Positions 1 to 7,508 of a stretch of DNA of 7,508 nucleotides are shown piece by piece (within the stretch, counting starts at the first letter, position 1; each line of letters begins with the position of its first letter). A program made the position numbers and the translations under genes. A model generated the notes under the pieces. The model did no database searches. It worked only from the letters and a program-made list of their open reading frames with translations, and was not told the DNA's origin. Source of the DNA: Methylovulum sp. (GTDB taxonomy: Bacteria; Pseudomonadota; Gammaproteobacteria; Methylococcales; Methylomonadaceae). The stretch lies in NCBI GenBank assembly GCA_028713595.1, contig JAQTNZ010000113.1, positions 1 through 7,508 of the forward strand, read 5' to 3'.

Positions 1-788
1 TGCTCAGTGATATTATTATTAAAATCACGCATTGCCTTTTCTAAGGCTTCAATGAACGCTTTAGAATTGTTTTCAGCAACAATTTGCGCAAAGTCTTCAA
101 ATTTTTGTGATAAATTATCGAAATTGGTGGTCAATACGCTGTTGAGCAACTCGCTACGATACTTGTTGTTGGAGTCAATATCTTTCAATGCGTCTTTCAT
201 ATCTATACGCACTTTAGCCAATTGCGTTGTCACGGACGCATCGCCCTCACCTGCTAAACTAGATTTGATACTATCGAGTAAAATATTTTGCTTTCTAAAT
301 TCCTGAGGGAGTTCTTCAATAGCTTGCTTTAATTCTCGCAATAAAGTGTCAGGGCTGTTTTTTACGCTCCTTAATAAGGTTTCGTTAATTATCCCCAGTA
401 ATTCAATGATTTTTTCATCAGAACTGGTTTCAACAGTTTTTTGTTCAATAGTAAAGCTTTGTGCAACCCTAACAATAATTGATGCAAAGATACCCATTAA
501 GCTAGCGATGAATTTAACCTTTAATCCATCAAGTAATTTTGGGATGCTATTTTGAATATCATTTAAATCCAAACCAATTAAACCAATTGAAATCCCCCAA
601 AAACTAAAAAATATTCCAACAGTTGCTAAAATTGAAGGTGATTGTTTAATGTAGTGTTCGAGTTTTTCAGAATTAGGCCAAAGTTTTCTTCCAAATAAGG
701 CAAGTATTGTCAATATAGCAATAACAATCAAAGCAACGATATTGGTTAAACTGTTAAAGATAGCCTGTGTGATTTGTAGCATTTCCAT
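1..788 (-). CDS. zorA: ZorA-like MotA/TolQ/ExbB-family membrane protein, 3' end missing
   Basis: This open frame runs from an ATG at 788-786 to the left edge without a stop, giving 262 residues of a longer protein. Hydrophobic segments lie at about residues 14-33, 51-73 and 93-109. The second and third have the MotA/TolQ/ExbB channel look (SPSILATVGIFFSFWGISIG at 50-69, then IPKLLDGLKVKFIASLMGIF at 82-101). From about 113 the chain is polar, charged and probably helical, with a stretch near 223-262 (AENNSKAFIEALE, RDFNNNITE) that I recall as typical of ZorA tails. In Zorya, ZorA forms a proton-driven, stator-like inner-membrane complex with ZorB that senses phage infection and passes the signal through its long tail to cytoplasmic effectors. 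A GAG seven bases before the first ATG favours it over the ATG at 782. The gene is A+T-rich, unlike the rest of the window. Its partners would lie outside. A generic ExbB/TolQ homologue is the alternative, but the tail argues against it. Confidence 0.78.
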   Translation of the reverse strand, partial: MEMLQITQAIFNSLTNIVALIVIAILTILALFGRKLWPNSEKLEHYIKQSPSILATVGIFFSFWGISIGLIGLDLNDIQNSIPKLLDGLKVKFIASLMGIFASIIVRVAQSFTIEQKTVETSSDEKIIELLGIINETLLRSVKNSPDTLLRELKQAIEELPQEFRKQNILLDSIKSSLAGEGDASVTTQLAKVRIDMKDALKDIDSNNKYRSELLNSVLTTNFDNLSQKFEDFAQIVAENNSKAFIEALEKAMRDFNNNITE

Positions 789-1312: not shown

Positions 1313-2233
1313 TTGCGCTTCACTGTTCCCCATCCCATACCTTATCAAGGCAGCAAGCGGCGGTTGGCAACAGCCATTCTTAGCCACGTCCCCGCTAATC
1401 AGTACACGCGCCTTATAGAGCCGTTTGCCGGTTCTGCCGCTGTTAGTTTGGCGGCGGCATCCCGAAATACGTTTTCCTCTTTTGTGATAGGTGATGCGCT
1501 CGAGCCACTTATCAAACTATGGAATATGGTCATTGTTGACCCTACGGAAGCCGCCGATGAGTACAGTAAGTTATGGCATCGGGAACGCGAAAAACCAATT
1601 GAGGCCTACTATGAAATTCGTTCTGAGTTTAATGTCGATCGTAGCCCAACCAAGTTGTTGTATTTGTTGGCTAGATGCGTGAAAAACGCTGTTCGGTTTA
1701 ATCCGGCAGGTGAGTTTAACCAGTCACCGGACAAGCGACGGAAGGGGACGCGCCCGCAATTGATGAAAGAAGAGTTGTTTGCTGCCCATCGGGTTCTTGC
1801 AGGTAGGTCTCAAGCCGTGTACGGGGACTTTTTTTCAATGATTCTATCAGCCCAAAAAGGGGATTTCTTCTACCTGGACCCGCCGTATCAAGGCACCAGC
1901 GAGGGGCGGGATCAACGCTATATTTCTGGTGTTAGCCGGGATAGGATGGTTGAAGCGCTGGCAGTCCTTAATGAAAAACGCATACCGTTTATTCTCAGCT
2001 ACGATGGTTTTTGCGGGGAACGCAATTATGGTGATCCTCTTCCCGAAGCTGTTGCCCATCGGATTTTGTTAGATGTTGGCAGGTCCAGTCAGGCCACTCT
2101 CAATGGCCGTAATGACGTGACAATAGAATCCCTTTATGTCTCTCACTGTATTCCGGTTATACGCGAAGTCAACAGGCCTACCCGCTCACTGGGCGATTTT
2201 GCAGAACAGGCGACCCTATTTGCATTTTCTTAG
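1313..2233 (+). CDS. Type II R-M N6-adenine DNA methyltransferase, D12 class (Dam/EcoRV-like)
   Basis: This 306-residue enzyme would transfer a methyl group from S-adenosylmethionine to N6 of adenine in a specific DNA site, protecting the host from the neighbouring endonuclease. Visible motifs are PYQGSKRR near residues 10-17, the cofactor-binding EPFAGSAAVS at 36-45 (motif I), RFNPAGEFNQS near 128-138 as in D12 enzymes, and the catalytic DPPY at 189-192 (motif IV). The order, motif I first and DPPY later, is that of alpha-class D12 enzymes such as Dam and M.EcoRV, and the length fits the family. The start is TTG, preceded by AAGG, with an in-frame stop just upstream. The 3' end overlaps the convergent endonuclease gene by four bases. 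A controller box at its predicted transcription start suggests repression by C. The recognition site cannot be read from the sequence. Confidence 0.92.
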   Translation: MRFTVPHPIPYQGSKRRLATAILSHVPANQYTRLIEPFAGSAAVSLAAASRNTFSSFVIGDALEPLIKLWNMVIVDPTEAADEYSKLWHREREKPIEAYYEIRSEFNVDRSPTKLLYLLARCVKNAVRFNPAGEFNQSPDKRRKGTRPQLMKEELFAAHRVLAGRSQAVYGDFFSMILSAQKGDFFYLDPPYQGTSEGRDQRYISGVSRDRMVEALAVLNEKRIPFILSYDGFCGERNYGDPLPEAVAHRILLDVGRSSQATLNGRNDVTIESLYVSHCIPVIREVNRPTRSLGDFAEQATLFAFS

Positions 2234-2931
2234 CATTGCTTTTTTAACATGTGCTTTATCTCTTCTGCCAAGCTTAGTTGGTGACGTTCCGCCTCATCTT
2301 TGATGCGCTCAAAGTCGTTTAGCTCCTCGTCAATCCAGACAAGTTCTACCCGCCGTTGGGGTTGCATGGCGATGTGGGTATAAGCCGTTGGTTCCGCCCA
2401 ATAGCAAGACAGGCAGACATCAAAAGAATGCACTTGTAGCCAATTTTTGCAGTGTTCACATTCCCATGATTTTTTTCGGTTACATGAACCGCAGAGGATT
2501 TGATACGGTTGCCGTTCTTCGTATTGTGATTCACCAGCGACCTCGTAGGGGATACGGTGATCGACTTGTAAATTGTGGGTAGCCCCGCAAAGCTGGCATT
2601 TATCGCCAGCCGCATGAATGAGTGCATCCCGTTCTTTTTTGGGTAGGAGCCGCCGCCCCTTCTTGCCTACCTCCAATTCCCCTTCATCCAATTTATATGC
2701 CGCAATTGAACGGCCATTGGTGTGTTTGACTTTAATGGTTTTGAGGCGAAACCCCAAATCCCTAACGTCTTGGGCGGCGCGAGGTGGATGGTCGTATCCG
2801 GCTTGGCTGATTTGTTCGGTTGTGATAACGCCGTCTTTAAGGATGCTGTCTAAAACAAACCGCGCCCTTTTATTTGTTACCGCCGCGATTCGCTCAAGAA
2901 GCGCTTTAGGGAAGTCAGGAGCATCAGCCAT
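2230..2931 (-). CDS. HNH-type restriction endonuclease (putative R subunit of the R-M system)
   Basis: This 233-residue protein has an N-terminal part (about 5-85) that looks like a winged-helix or other helix-turn-helix DNA-binding fold, then a C-terminal HNH nuclease. The nuclease shows CQLC (112-115), VDHRIP (123-128, with D124 and H125 as likely catalytic-site residues) and CGSCNRKK (147-154, including N151). The cysteine pairs probably bind structural zinc. A second CxxC pair (158/161 and 173/176) suggests another zinc ribbon. It is assigned as the restriction enzyme from the HNH fold and its place between a controller and a methyltransferase. The ATG at 2931 is chosen because AAAGGAG lies seven bases upstream; an in-frame ATG at 2964 lies inside the controller gene and lacks that support. 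The start overlaps the controller's stop, so the two are probably translationally coupled. I do not recognise its specificity. Confidence 0.82.
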   Translation of the reverse strand: MADAPDFPKALLERIAAVTNKRARFVLDSILKDGVITTEQISQAGYDHPPRAAQDVRDLGFRLKTIKVKHTNGRSIAAYKLDEGELEVGKKGRRLLPKKERDALIHAAGDKCQLCGATHNLQVDHRIPYEVAGESQYEERQPYQILCGSCNRKKSWECEHCKNWLQVHSFDVCLSCYWAEPTAYTHIAMQPQRRVELVWIDEELNDFERIKDEAERHQLSLAEEIKHMLKKQC

Positions 2932-3148
2932 TAAACAGCTCCTTTGCTGGAACGCCCAATGCAACCGCTATTTTATGGATGTTTAGAAGGCTGACATTTC
3001 TTTCGCCACGTTCAACACTGCCAATATAGGTTCGGTCAAGATCACAGATAAGCGCCAGCGACTCCTGTGAAAGCCCTTTTTGCTTTCGAAGTTCCCGCAC
3101 TCGTGCGCCGAAGTTCTTTTGAAGTTGGTTTTCATTTGGTTTATTCAT
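2924..3148 (-). CDS. XRE-family controller (C) protein of the R-M system
   Basis: This 74-residue protein is almost entirely one helix-turn-helix domain. RVRELRKQKGLSQESLA begins at about residue 17, the recognition region is around DLDRTYIGSVERGERN (36-51), and NIHKIAVALGVPAKELF (56-72) closes the fold. Size, sequence and position directly upstream of the endonuclease match controller proteins such as C.AhdI and C.Esp1396I. These bind C-boxes as dimers, first activating and then repressing their own operon, which delays restriction while methylation is established. ATG at 3148 is chosen; a GTG at 3151 is directly adjacent and in frame. No clear Shine-Dalgarno site precedes either, which would fit a leaderless mRNA as reported for some C genes. 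The stop overlaps the endonuclease start (ATGGCTGA, 2931-2924). A tandem operator lies about 26 bases upstream. Confidence 0.9.
   Translation of the reverse strand: MNKPNENQLQKNFGARVRELRKQKGLSQESLALICDLDRTYIGSVERGERNVSLLNIHKIAVALGVPAKELFNG
2939..2945 (-). promoter_or_regulatory. Strong ribosome binding site of the endonuclease gene
   Basis: The minus strand reads AAAGGAG, then seven bases, then ATG at 2931-2929. The site lies inside the controller coding sequence and decides the start of the endonuclease. Confidence 0.75.
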
Positions 3149-3174
3149 CACTGTGCAATTGAATCACTGTAGAT

Positions 3175-3336: not shown

Positions 3337-3541
3337 CACGGTAAGGTTGGCTCCGTGGTATTTGCTCTGCCATCCGGTCGCCTATTATGACGATAAGGTC
3401 GGGATGAATTCTAGCTTCTATGTTGATGTGCAATTCATCAATATAGGGGGCGGACGGTATCTGGAAAGAAATCGCCGAACACCTGCCTCGCTATCGCCGA
3501 AGGCCCTTAGGCGTGGCGAACGGGTATTAACCTAAGGTGAT

Positions 3542-3722: not shown

Positions 3723-6700
3723 ATGAATTTTTCGCAACCACAAGATGTTGACAGCTATCTTTTCCCCGCGTCTTTCGCCCAGCAACGGCTGTGGTTTTTT
3801 GAGCGGCTGATGGGGGTTAACGGCATTTATAACATCATCTTGGCGACTCGGCTTATCGGCGAGTTGGTTGTGCCTGCTTTGCAGCAAAGCCTTGATGCCA
3901 TTGTTGCCCGCCATGAGGCGTTACGGACTGGCTTTGGCGAACAGGACGGCAACACTATCCAGGTCATCAGGCCTACACTATCTGTGGCCTGTACGCGGCT
4001 GGAGTTGCCCGCCTATCGGCAAGATGAAGTTCAAGGCATTTTGGAGGCACAGGCAAACCAAGCCTTTGACCTCAAGCAGCCACCTTTAATCCGTGCCTTG
4101 TTGGTCACATTATCAGGGCAGGGTAGCCATATCCTGCTTATCACCGTCCATCACAGTGTGTTCGATGGTTGGTCTATCGCCGTGTTTAACAAAGAATTGG
4201 CGCATTTTTACCACGCCTTTAGCCAAGGCCCAGCGGCGGCTTTACCTAAATTGCCCATCCAGTATGCGGACTATGCGGTCTGGCAACGGGAATGGTTGCA
4301 GGGTGAGATGCTGGATAAGCAACTGGCGTATTGGCAACGGCAATTGTCTGGCCTGTCCGTATTGGAATTGCCGACCGACAGGCCGCGTCCGAAGCGCCCG
4401 TCGCATCGGGGCGGGCAAGTGCCTATCCGTTTGTCTGCCGAGTTGGCCCAAGGGCTTGACCGCTTGGCACACCACCACCATGCGACCTTATTCATGGTTC
4501 TTTTGGCAGGTCTGCAAACGTTGTTGCACCGCTACAGCGGCCAAACCGACATTGCCATTGGCACTGCCATTGCCGGACGCAACCGCGAGGAGTTGCAAGG
4601 CTTGATTGGCTTTTTTGTCAATACGCTAGTGTTGCGCGGGGATTTGTCAGACCATCCCGATTTTTGCCAATTGCTAGGCCAAGCCCGTAAAACCTGTCTG
4701 GAAGCTTATGGTCATCAGGATATTCCTTTCGAAAAGCTGGTTGCCGAAGTTCAAAGCGGACGTGATACGGGCCGCCATCCGCTGTTTCAAGTCATGTTGG
4801 TCTTACAGCCGCCACCCGTCTTAAACCCGCCTTGGCCGGGCTTGGCGATGGAACCGCTTGCCGTTGCCCATCACTTTGCCAAGTTTGACCTGATAGTTTC
4901 CTTGACGGAATACCCTGATGGTCTGGCGGGCGAAGTCGAATACAGCGCTGATTTGTTCGATGCCGCCACTATCGTCCGCATGGTCGGGCATTTTCAGACC
5001 CTATTGGCGGCTATTGTCAGGCAACCGGAAACTGCCATTGCCGAACTGGAGTTGCTTACCGACTCCGAACGTAAGCAACTCAGTGGCTGGAACGCCACCA
5101 CCACGGCCTATCCGCACAATCAATGCGTCCATCAGCTTTTTGAAACGCAAGCGGCAAAGACACCGGAGGCCATTGCCCTAGTTTTTGAAGGGCAGCAACT
5201 GAGTTACCAAGAACTTAACACCAAGGCCAACCAGTTGGCGCACTACCTTGCCAGTTTGACGGGTAAGCCGGACCTATTGATAGGCGTTTGCTTACCAAGA
5301 AGCCCGGCGATGATTATCACTGTCTTGGCGATCCTTAAGGCAGGTGGCGGTTATGTGCCGCTAGACCCGGCTTATCCTAAAGAGCGGCTAAAATGTATGC
5401 TGGCAGATGCTAACGTTCCGGTATTGATTACCCATACGGGGCAACGGGATAGCCTTCCTGAAACGGATGCCCTGATCGTCTGTGCCGATACGCTAGAGGA
5501 AACCCTTAACGCTTTTGGCACGGATAATCCGGCGGCTATCGCCACCCCTGAAAATCTGGCCTATGTGTTGTATACGTCCGGTTCGACAGGCATCCCTAAA
5601 GGCGTGGCTATGCCCCACCGTGCGTTGGTCAATTTGCTCAACTGGCAGACTGATGGCTTCAAACCCGCACCTGACCGGCGAATTCTGCAATTTACCAGTC
5701 TAAGTTTTGATGTGTCTTTCCAAGAAATTTTTACTGCCCTGACCACAGGGGGCGCTCTGGTGTTGATTTTGGAAGAACAACGCCGCTATCCGCCGGTATT
5801 GTTAAATAGTATTGCCCAGCAAAAAATAACAGACCTGTTCATCCCGTTTATCGCCCTGCAACAACTCGCCCAAGCCCATGCCAATACTGCCATAGCTAAT
5901 CATCTTAACGTGATTATAACGGCGGGCGAGGCGCTGCATATCACCCCCGCCATCAAACGCTTTATGGAAAGCTTGGGCGGTTGCCAGTTAGTCAACCAAT
6001 ACGGCCCGACAGAATGCCATGTGGTCACTGCTTTTAATTTGCCTAAAGATATAAGCGCTTGGGCGGAGTTTCCATCCATAGGCCAGCCGATTGCCAACAC
6101 CCAAATCTATATTTTGGACAAGCAGTTGCAGCCTGTCCCTATCGGGGTGATCGGCGAGATTTATATCGGTGGCGACAGCTTGGCACGCGGTTATCTCAAC
6201 CAAGCGGAATTGACCGCCGAAAAATTCATTAGCCATCCTTTCAGCACCGACCCCGCCGCCCGGCTATACAAAACCGGCGATCTGGCCCGTTATCTGCCCG
6301 ATGGCGGCATTACGTTTCTGGGGCGTATGGATAAGCAAATCAAGTTGCGCGGTTTCCGCATTGAGCTGGGGGAGATAGAAGCGGTGTTGGGGCAATACCC
6401 AAGTGTCAATGATGTGGTGGTGCTGATCCGTGAGGACTTGCCCGGCGATAAACGCCTAGTCGCTTATCTGACTTGTCCACCTCAGGCGCAACCGGACATC
6501 AACGCCTTGCGCGGACATGTCAAAGCTAAGTTGCCCGATTACATGGTGCCTTCGGCTTTTGTGTTTTTGGAGAGCCTGCCCTTGACCCCTAATGGCAAAC
6601 TTGACCGTGATGCCTTGCCTGTCCCTGAGCCGTCACGTCCTGAATTGGCGCAATTATATGCCCCGCCCAGAACTCCCGTTGAAGAAGTGCTGGCGGCCAT

Positions 6701-6965
6701 TTGGCGGGAAGTGTTGGGGGTTGCCCAAGTCGGCATTCATGACAGTTTTCTGGATTTAGGTGGGGATTCTATCTTGGCTATGCAATTGCTTGCGCGTATC
6801 GATAGCCATTTTCAAATGGGGTTCCCATTGGACTTGCTATTTGAAGAGCCTACCATCGCCGGCCTGTCAGGACAATTGGAAATCCTTCTGAAACAAGCAA
6901 GCCCTGGAAAAAGATTGCCTATCCGTGCCTTGCGGCGGCAACCTTATAAACTAGATTACCTATGA
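3723..6965 (+). CDS. Nonribosomal peptide synthetase, one module C-A-T, probable proline activation
   Basis: This 1080-residue cytoplasmic enzyme adds one amino acid to a growing peptide. The condensation domain (about 10-450) has SFAQQRLWF (17-25), RHEALRTGF (63-71), HHSVFDG (143-149, catalytic H144), YADYAVWQ (181-188) and RHPLFQVML (351-359), an LCL-like set. The adenylation domain (about 465-965) has LSYQEL, YTSGSTGIPKG (617-627), NQYGPTE (758-764), YKTGDL, KLRGFRIELGEIE and NGKLDR with K959. The carrier domain has LGGDSI, with S1016 for phosphopantetheine. The specificity residues read by alignment to GrsA are D663, V664, Q667, F706, I732, A734, Q759, V767, V768 and K959 (DVQFIAQVVK). 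This is close to the proline code DVQLIAHVVK as I recall it. There is no epimerase or thioesterase. An in-frame stop at 3714-3716 supports ATG 3723; the ribosome site is weak. The stop overlaps the next gene's start. The N-terminal C domain implies a donor from elsewhere, either an upstream synthetase or an acyl group. Confidence 0.93.
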   Translation: MNFSQPQDVDSYLFPASFAQQRLWFFERLMGVNGIYNIILATRLIGELVVPALQQSLDAIVARHEALRTGFGEQDGNTIQVIRPTLSVACTRLELPAYRQDEVQGILEAQANQAFDLKQPPLIRALLVTLSGQGSHILLITVHHSVFDGWSIAVFNKELAHFYHAFSQGPAAALPKLPIQYADYAVWQREWLQGEMLDKQLAYWQRQLSGLSVLELPTDRPRPKRPSHRGGQVPIRLSAELAQGLDRLAHHHHATLFMVLLAGLQTLLHRYSGQTDIAIGTAIAGRNREELQGLIGFFVNTLVLRGDLSDHPDFCQLLGQARKTCLEAYGHQDIPFEKLVAEVQSGRDTGRHPLFQVMLVLQPPPVLNPPWPGLAMEPLAVAHHFAKFDLIVSLTEYPDGLAGEVEYSADLFDAATIVRMVGHFQTLLAAIVRQPETAIAELELLTDSERKQLSGWNATTTAYPHNQCVHQLFETQAAKTPEAIALVFEGQQLSYQELNTKANQLAHYLASLTGKPDLLIGVCLPRSPAMIITVLAILKAGGGYVPLDPAYPKERLKCMLADANVPVLITHTGQRDSLPETDALIVCADTLEETLNAFGTDNPAAIATPENLAYVLYTSGSTGIPKGVAMPHRALVNLLNWQTDGFKPAPDRRILQFTSLSFDVSFQEIFTALTTGGALVLILEEQRRYPPVLLNSIAQQKITDLFIPFIALQQLAQAHANTAIANHLNVIITAGEALHITPAIKRFMESLGGCQLVNQYGPTECHVVTAFNLPKDISAWAEFPSIGQPIANTQIYILDKQLQPVPIGVIGEIYIGGDSLARGYLNQAELTAEKFISHPFSTDPAARLYKTGDLARYLPDGGITFLGRMDKQIKLRGFRIELGEIEAVLGQYPSVNDVVVLIREDLPGDKRLVAYLTCPPQAQPDINALRGHVKAKLPDYMVPSAFVFLESLPLTPNGKLDRDALPVPEPSRPELAQLYAPPRTPVEEVLAAIWREVLGVAQVGIHDSFLDLGGDSILAMQLLARIDSHFQMGFPLDLLFEEPTIAGLSGQLEILLKQASPGKRLPIRALRRQPYKLDYL

Positions 6966-7508
6966 TATTGCACGAACACCCTGACGGGCATCCTGAACCG
7001 GAAAAGGTTGGCGACTACCTGTTCCCCACGTCTTATGCCCAGCAACGGCTGTGGTTTTTAGAGCGGCTGCTCGGAGCCAGCGGCCTGTATAACATTAGCT
7101 GGGCCATCCGGCTGACTGGTAGGCTGGATGTGCCGGCCTTACAACAGAGTTTTGCCGCCCTTGTCGCCCGCCATGAAACCTTGCGGACTTCTTTTGCCGA
7201 ACAGGACGGCGAGCCGGTGCAGATTATCAGGTCAGCCCTGCCTTTCCAGTGCACAGTGAAGGTGTTGCCAGTATCTCAAGAGCGCGAAATCCAAGGCCTA
7301 CTCGATGCTGAGGCCAGCAAACCGTTCGACCTGAAAGCAGCCCCCTTAATCCGCGCCTTGCTACTGGCCTTGGCCGAAGGGCAACATATCCTGCTGACCA
7401 CCCTCCATCATAGTATTGCCGATGGCTGGTCTATGGCGGTGTTCCGGCAAGAACTGGCGCATTTCTACCGCGCTTTTAGCCAAGGCCAAGCGGTAGGGCT
7501 ACCCGAAT
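6962..7508 (+). CDS. Second nonribosomal peptide synthetase, partial (condensation domain start)
   Basis: The frame opens with ATG at 6962-6964, overlapping the TGA of the preceding synthetase (ATGA), and runs 182 codons to the right edge without a stop. It encodes the N-terminal half of a condensation domain: SYAQQRLWFLERL near residues 25-37, RHETLRTSF at about 74-82, and the catalytic HHSIADGW around 151-158. It should accept the aminoacyl or peptidyl chain from the carrier domain of the preceding enzyme and join it to the next residue. Protein and DNA are strikingly similar to the start of the first synthetase, indicating duplication. The overlap points to co-transcription and coupled translation. 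The activated amino acid and any termination domain lie outside the window. Confidence 0.9.
   Translation, partial: MILHEHPDGHPEPEKVGDYLFPTSYAQQRLWFLERLLGASGLYNISWAIRLTGRLDVPALQQSFAALVARHETLRTSFAEQDGEPVQIIRSALPFQCTVKVLPVSQEREIQGLLDAEASKPFDLKAAPLIRALLLALAEGQHILLTTLHHSIADGWSMAVFRQELAHFYRAFSQGQAVGLPE

Follow-up and report, generated by a model that had tools for sequence, protein, structure and literature searches.

The stretch of DNA analysed here (hereafter the window), 7,508 bases of a Methylovulum sp. genome (GCA_028713595.1, contig JAQTNZ010000113.1), begins inside a minus-strand gene that runs off its left edge, and it raises the question of which motor protein this gene encodes and to which system it belongs. 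The earlier note had described a frame without a stop in the window that encodes a three-segment membrane region, then a helical tail of ZorA-like sequence, beside a restriction-modification (R-M) system. Our results agree on each of these points and place the gene in Zorya type II: positions 3 to 788 very probably encode the predicted membrane core and the tail start of a type II ZorA, whose operon would continue past the edge with zorB2 and zorE. The frame starts with ATG at 788 and is open for 262 codons to the contig edge at position 3. Because the window is the entire contig C113 (one of 587 in an assembly 76.6% complete) and the frame is still open at the edge, zorA is truncated by the assembly.

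A PADLOC profile search of the window ZorA gave 11 matches, six of them ZorA2 models (best E=4.4e-39) and none of them a ZorA3 model; the best ZorA1 match (1.9e-10) ranked far below. The NCBIfam ZorA2 profile matched at E=6.6e-21. Among solved chains, type II ZorA of Sulfuricurvum kujiense (8vvi) was best (E=5.9e-19), followed by the ZorA chains 8qyy, 8qyh, 8qyk and 8qyd (E=1.4e-05 to 2e-04), and the best TolQ reached only 0.018. No MotA, TolQ or ExbB match was found in a Pfam search. The structure model (mean pLDDT 69.9, pTM 0.35) predicted three helices that are taken as membrane segments (Table 1) and, beyond them, long helices up to residue 261. The invariant core positions, S96 included, were all kept. 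Concerning the long tail, a criterion of Zorya type II, the first 140 tail residues lie in the window and are helical in the model, and the remainder lies off the contig. The tail stretch AENNSKAFIEALEKAMRDFNNNITE was conserved among close relatives, and S. kujiense ZorA has a match to it.

Relatives were searched in 200 genomes, own genome included, and 12 had a match at E <= 0.001. Close matches were in G004 of the same genus (75% identity across all 262 residues), G080 (64%), G097 (58%) and G066 (60% over residues 3-213 and 49% over the rest). A contig scan yielded four loci: L017, the G004 contig (Methylococcaceae MAG PowLak16_MAG1), L018, the G080 contig, L019 (69% identical to the window ZorA) and L020 (67% across the first 100 residues). 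Three stretches of viral contigs fitted the search pattern, none of them a relative. These four loci together with L024 (G097) and L025 (G066) made up six close relatives, the best segments of which were 58-75% identical to the window protein. In four of the six, zorA, zorB and zorE were consecutive in that order, with products of 760, 236 and 278 amino acids in L018, 643, 230 and 275 in L024, and 573, 230 and 272 in L025; in L019, zorA was split into two open reading frames (ORFs), followed by zorB (236) and zorE (276). The identity of zorB and zorE was established by PADLOC profiles in L018 (ZorB2 6e-86, ZorE 2.6e-64) and L019 (1e-85 and 2.5e-72), and by alignment in L024 and L025. All four keep the HNH core of ZorE, the EGHTSSEW stretch and, at the position of E. 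coli D24, the channel Asp of ZorB (SVSDMMSGLM). Since zorB and zorE stand directly behind zorA in these relatives, the window zorA is assigned to type II. The L017 contig terminates within zorA. In L020 (9995-10502), zorA residues 3-104 were fused to zorB residues 161-231, a deletion scar that joined the start of zorA to the end of zorB, and no ZorE match was found within this locus; the fusion therefore also indicates the zorA-zorB order in this family. The window gene is thus an ordinary member of Zorya type II, cut by the contig end. For the window gene, a new Zorya variant, which the earlier note had left open, was unsupported.

Searches of the 76.6%-complete own assembly found no ZorE, no further type II ZorA and no more ZorA-II tail, and none of its other contigs has the terminal 20 bases of the window. 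The sole zorB found is on contig C301, which starts partway through another zorA; the first 197 codons of that gene close contig C3, and the ends of C3 and C301 share 23 identical bases in frame. The C301 zorB is the partner of this second zorA, not of the window zorA. With no zorE, no further type II zorA and a zorB belonging to another operon, the window gene could be a decayed remnant of an otherwise deleted operon, in which the start of zorA alone survives, and such a scar exists in L020. We consider this improbable, because the frame is open for its 262 codons with the invariant residues retained, and the gene runs into the end of a contig in an incomplete, fragmented assembly. A still poorer case can be made for a motor subunit of the housekeeping TolQ/ExbB type or another MotA-like one. 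The three-helix fold would be shared, VIA-align links TolQ, ExbB and ZorA, and ZorA was not separable from TolQ/ExbB by fold alone. Nevertheless, the placement among housekeeping proteins, named in the earlier note as the outcome that would speak against ZorA, failed on the TolQ and Pfam results above, and the genes behind zorA in L018 and L019 were zorB2-zorE, not tolR/exbD. Least credible of all is a Zorya without zorE whose halves are the window zorA and the C301 zorB: C301 does start within a zorA tail and its zorB matches ZorB2 models, but the C3-C301 overlap completes a different zorA and refutes the joining, the window end showed no exact overlap in the range of 8 to 60 nt, and the C301 zorB is 64% identical to the zorB of G188, where zorA stands behind a kinase gene, versus 44% to the type II zorB of L018.

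Compared with known systems, the window ZorA resembled Zorya II of an E. coli plasmid (NZ_CP127005.1) and of S. kujiense (8VVI) in profile and in the three predicted membrane helices, and its relatives resembled them in the zorA2-zorB2-zorE order, the ZorB channel Asp and the ZorE HNH core. At 26.4%, identity to E. coli ZorA2 was low, full-length relatives were often 570-967 amino acids long (E. coli, 550; S. kujiense, 378), and ZorE of the four relatives (272-278 amino acids) was without the C-terminal part of the 367-amino-acid E. coli protein. Zorya I (zorABCD) shares the ZorA motor core (8qyd, 8vvn), with a weaker match to the window ZorA, and has zorC/zorD behind zorAB where L018 and L019 have zorE. 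The TolQ-TolR, ExbB-ExbD and MotA-MotB motors have the membrane fold in common with the window ZorA and differ in sequence, in the long ZorA tail and in the gene neighbours seen in relatives. Two other Zorya types were considered for the window gene and rejected: type I, given the far lower rank of ZorA1 and the zorE of L018 and L019 (the window's own downstream genes lie off the contig), and type III (ZorA3, zorF DUF3348, zorG DUF2894), given the lack of a ZorA3 match and zorE as the third gene of both loci.

According to PMC11890865, types I and II form ZorA5B2 motors, the tail and peptidoglycan binding are required for defence, and ZorE is a nickase. By analogy with the solved Zorya II described there, the complex would be an ion-driven motor of two ZorB chains ringed by five of ZorA and held to peptidoglycan through ZorB, with the tails of ZorA gathered in a long rod in the cytoplasm. 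When phages attack, it would bring in the HNH nickase ZorE, leading to DNA cutting. The data show the gene, its type by profile, and the gene order and motifs conserved in relatives; for this genome, the off-contig genes, the assembly of the complex, its motor action and anti-phage defence are proposed. The contribution of the window gene itself is one further Zorya II among relatives of methanotrophs. Two by-products of the analysis, a regularity in ZorA-II tail length and a second ZorAB operon linked to a kinase and a phosphatase, matter more.

For tail length, the first 290 residues of L018 ZorA were used as query, and at least 524 proteins matched at E <= 1e-20 among 7994 candidates scored, 120 of which were listed. 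Among the matches listed, full lengths included 9 proteins of 662-669 amino acids, 16 of 750-778, 9 of 859-876 and a single one at 967; lengths in a more distant set among them were 589 (13 proteins), 611 (14) and 633 (4), in steps of 22. The tail was defined as the span from a W-Q anchor to a C-terminal FVxDY-like anchor in a sample of 127 proteins (P0003, P0005-P0123 and seven from the loci; P0004, a near copy of P0003, was excluded). Both anchors were present in 113 of these, and four of the 14 without an anchor came from the loci. Anchor-to-anchor tails ranged from 154 to 636 residues, an approximately fourfold spread, with 39 distinct lengths. These 39 lengths were coherent at 3.655 residues (R=0.882), a value reached by none of 5000 random sets (band 3.0-4.5, maximum 0.577), and the control stretch from the start codon to the first anchor gave R=0.24. 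For 20 representatives with <70% core identity, R was 0.922 (0/5000 random sets). With the anchor pair used first, which was narrower, 92 of 122 proteins could be measured and the peak also lay at 3.655 (R=0.704); the more distant subset of the wider-anchor sample peaked at 3.645. The hydrophobic period of the tail, measured separately, was 3.655 across the 60 proteins of the near set and 3.64 across the other 51 (E. coli included), and was lost when near-set tails were shuffled (power 1.2 versus 25.3).

From these values, we infer that changes in ZorA-II tail length are almost always whole numbers of turns of the predicted helix. A length of 106 residues, exactly 29 turns of 3.655, was the leading self-similarity lag in 7 of the 13 tails examined (with P0003 and its copy P0004 entered separately) and the most frequent among gaps of at least 20 residues in tails of related pairs; L017 carries a 318-bp (106-codon) tandem unit in 2.1 copies, up to the very contig end. 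Several observations weigh against this interpretation: a lag other than 106 led in 6 of the 13 tails, pairwise gaps included off-lattice values (partly from broken-end proteins such as P0008) and came from non-independent pairs, the relatives that form the lattice are themselves not independent, and the window zorA stops about 17 residues short of the first anchor and so falls outside the tail sample.

Insertions and deletions of whole turns are what a continuous coiled coil would lead one to expect, and the tail rule is therefore strong, not mysterious. The rule suggests that the rod is likely one continuous bundle, the length of which is free and the phase of which is not. If the tail has to form an unbroken helical rod all the way from the membrane to its tip, length changes would nearly always be whole turns, often the 29 turns of 106 residues. 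PMC11890865 describes component size as well conserved within each Zorya family; in contrast, type II tail length varied about fourfold with helical phase kept almost everywhere. Taken as a single straight helix with a rise of 0.149 nm per residue, such tails would measure roughly 23 to 95 nm. No claim is made that this periodicity is absent from print.

The zorA shared by C3 and C301 belongs to a second operon with the gene order VWA, PP2C phosphatase, Ser/Thr kinase, zorA and zorB, spanning C3:17676-20827 (L062 6677-9828) and C301:1-1636 (L023), with four-base overlaps at VWA/PP2C and kinase/zorA. The same five genes were together in G188 (L053; zorA-zorB gap of 8 bases) and G144 (L054; 9 bases). 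In G147, VWA, PP2C, kinase and zorA were together and zorB was on another contig, starting 339 bases inside the contig end; the 420 bases from zorA to its own contig end held no zorB and were mostly an imperfect palindrome, and no exact overlap was found between the two contig ends. This palindrome (about 300 bases, L056 10214-10514) also occurs in short pieces elsewhere in L053 and L055, as a dispersed repeat.

Pfam searches on the G188 operon identified VWA (4.5e-12), PP2C_2 (9.3e-35), Pkinase (1.5e-15) and OmpA in ZorB (2.9e-08). With PADLOC, the ZorA of the G188 operon matched both ZorA1 and ZorA2 models (best 9.3e-18), ZorB matched ZorB2 (6.8e-61), the phosphatase had one faint match (1.2e-4), the kinase had kinase-domain matches (best PD-T4-6, 4.9e-14), and VWA had none. 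Residues that we take to be catalytic or metal-binding in VWA, PP2C and the kinase were kept in all four genomes, and the three genes presumably correspond to what is called the 'TerY-P triad'. Across 311 genomes surveyed in the order, seven matched the second-operon ZorA at E <= 1e-8: own, G188, G144, G147 and three weak ones at 20-29% identity. Among 369 genomes of the class, PP2C matches were found in 12, own included; the 12 PP2C loci of the 11 others had VWA in 9 and the kinase in 6, and none had a zorA or zorB of the second type within about 1.5 kb on each side. A protein database search gave 13 relatives (35-96% identity over 96-100% of length), one from Methylovulum psychrotolerans.

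The described Zorya types comprise zorABCD, zorABE and zorAB with zorF/zorG, as given in PMC11890865 and PMC8565338. The second operon fits none of Zorya I-III, the described types found. A literature search, thin on subscription papers, found no paper that combined ZorAB with both PP2C and a kinase, none that combined four or more of TerY, PP2C, von Willebrand, kinase and MotA, and none that combined Zorya with phosphatase, VWA and kinase together; absence from print is not claimed. We tentatively propose, with slightly more doubt than confidence, that this genome has two ZorAB motors, the second being a fourth Zorya kind whose motor is coupled to a kinase/phosphatase switch instead of a co-encoded nuclease. 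Infection would shift the phosphorylation state and thereby start or aim the ZorAB motor. If so, ZorAB motors would be wired to phospho-signalling too, as a motor module common to different outputs.

Table 1. Predicted features of the window and of the second ZorAB operon (contigs C3 and C301).
Feature	Location	Strand	Evidence or remark
zorA (type II), first 262 codons, start-complete	3..788	-	ORF, profile searches, relatives
Predicted membrane helix 1, residues 14-36	681..749	-	structure model, moderate confidence
Predicted helix 2, residues 41-71	576..668	-	model and alignments; T56 nearly invariant; P51, G58, F63, G65 invariant
Predicted helix 3, residues 78-117	438..557	-	model and alignments; G88, K90, F93, S96, G99 invariant
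Start of predicted helical cytoplasmic tail, residues 123-262, terminating in AENNSKAFIEALEKAMRDFNNNITE	3..422	-	model and alignments
Dam-type adenine methyltransferase, type II R-M	1313..2233	+	PF02086 E=9e-34; PADLOC MTase_II E=5.5e-65
HNH restriction endonuclease	2230..2964	-	PF01844 E=1.2e-4, just over cut-off; PADLOC REase_II E=5.4e-50
Helix-turn-helix control protein of R-M system	2924..3151	-	PADLOC Control_protein E=2.9e-27
VWA	C3:17676-18353		ORF in second operon
PP2C phosphatase	C3:18350-19198		second operon
Ser/Thr kinase	C3:19203-20240		second operon
zorA of second operon	C3 from 20237, continuing to C301:827		
zorB of second operon	C301:839-1636		

The R-M system beside the window zorA, the methyltransferase, nuclease and control protein of which were matched by Pfam and PADLOC profiles (Table 1), is consistent with a defence setting. 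In L017, L018 and L019, the ORFs observed near zorA differed from the window's neighbours. Near the same-genus zorA, L017 764-3505 encodes an SNF2-type helicase with best PADLOC matches to HmaA, BrxHI and DrmD, possibly another defence neighbour.

Further along the window, 3723-6965 and 6962-7507 are two consecutive non-ribosomal peptide synthetase genes, 71% identical in DNA between their starts, the first with condensation, adenylation and carrier domains and the second with a condensation domain at the right edge. An intergenic repeat dispersed over two contigs of own genome was found at window 3346-3533 and L023 1920-2106 (85% identity over 189 bases). In G155, a Zorya-like locus of zorA, zorB and a third gene occurred twice with its flanks (L028 5140-8815 and 16067-19742), with equal ORF lengths and about 10.9 kb apart, which is either a duplication or an assembly artefact. 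In G017 of the same genus, L032 5412-12758 carries genes of 615, 259, 478 and 1119 amino acids that are type I Zorya-like by size and order.
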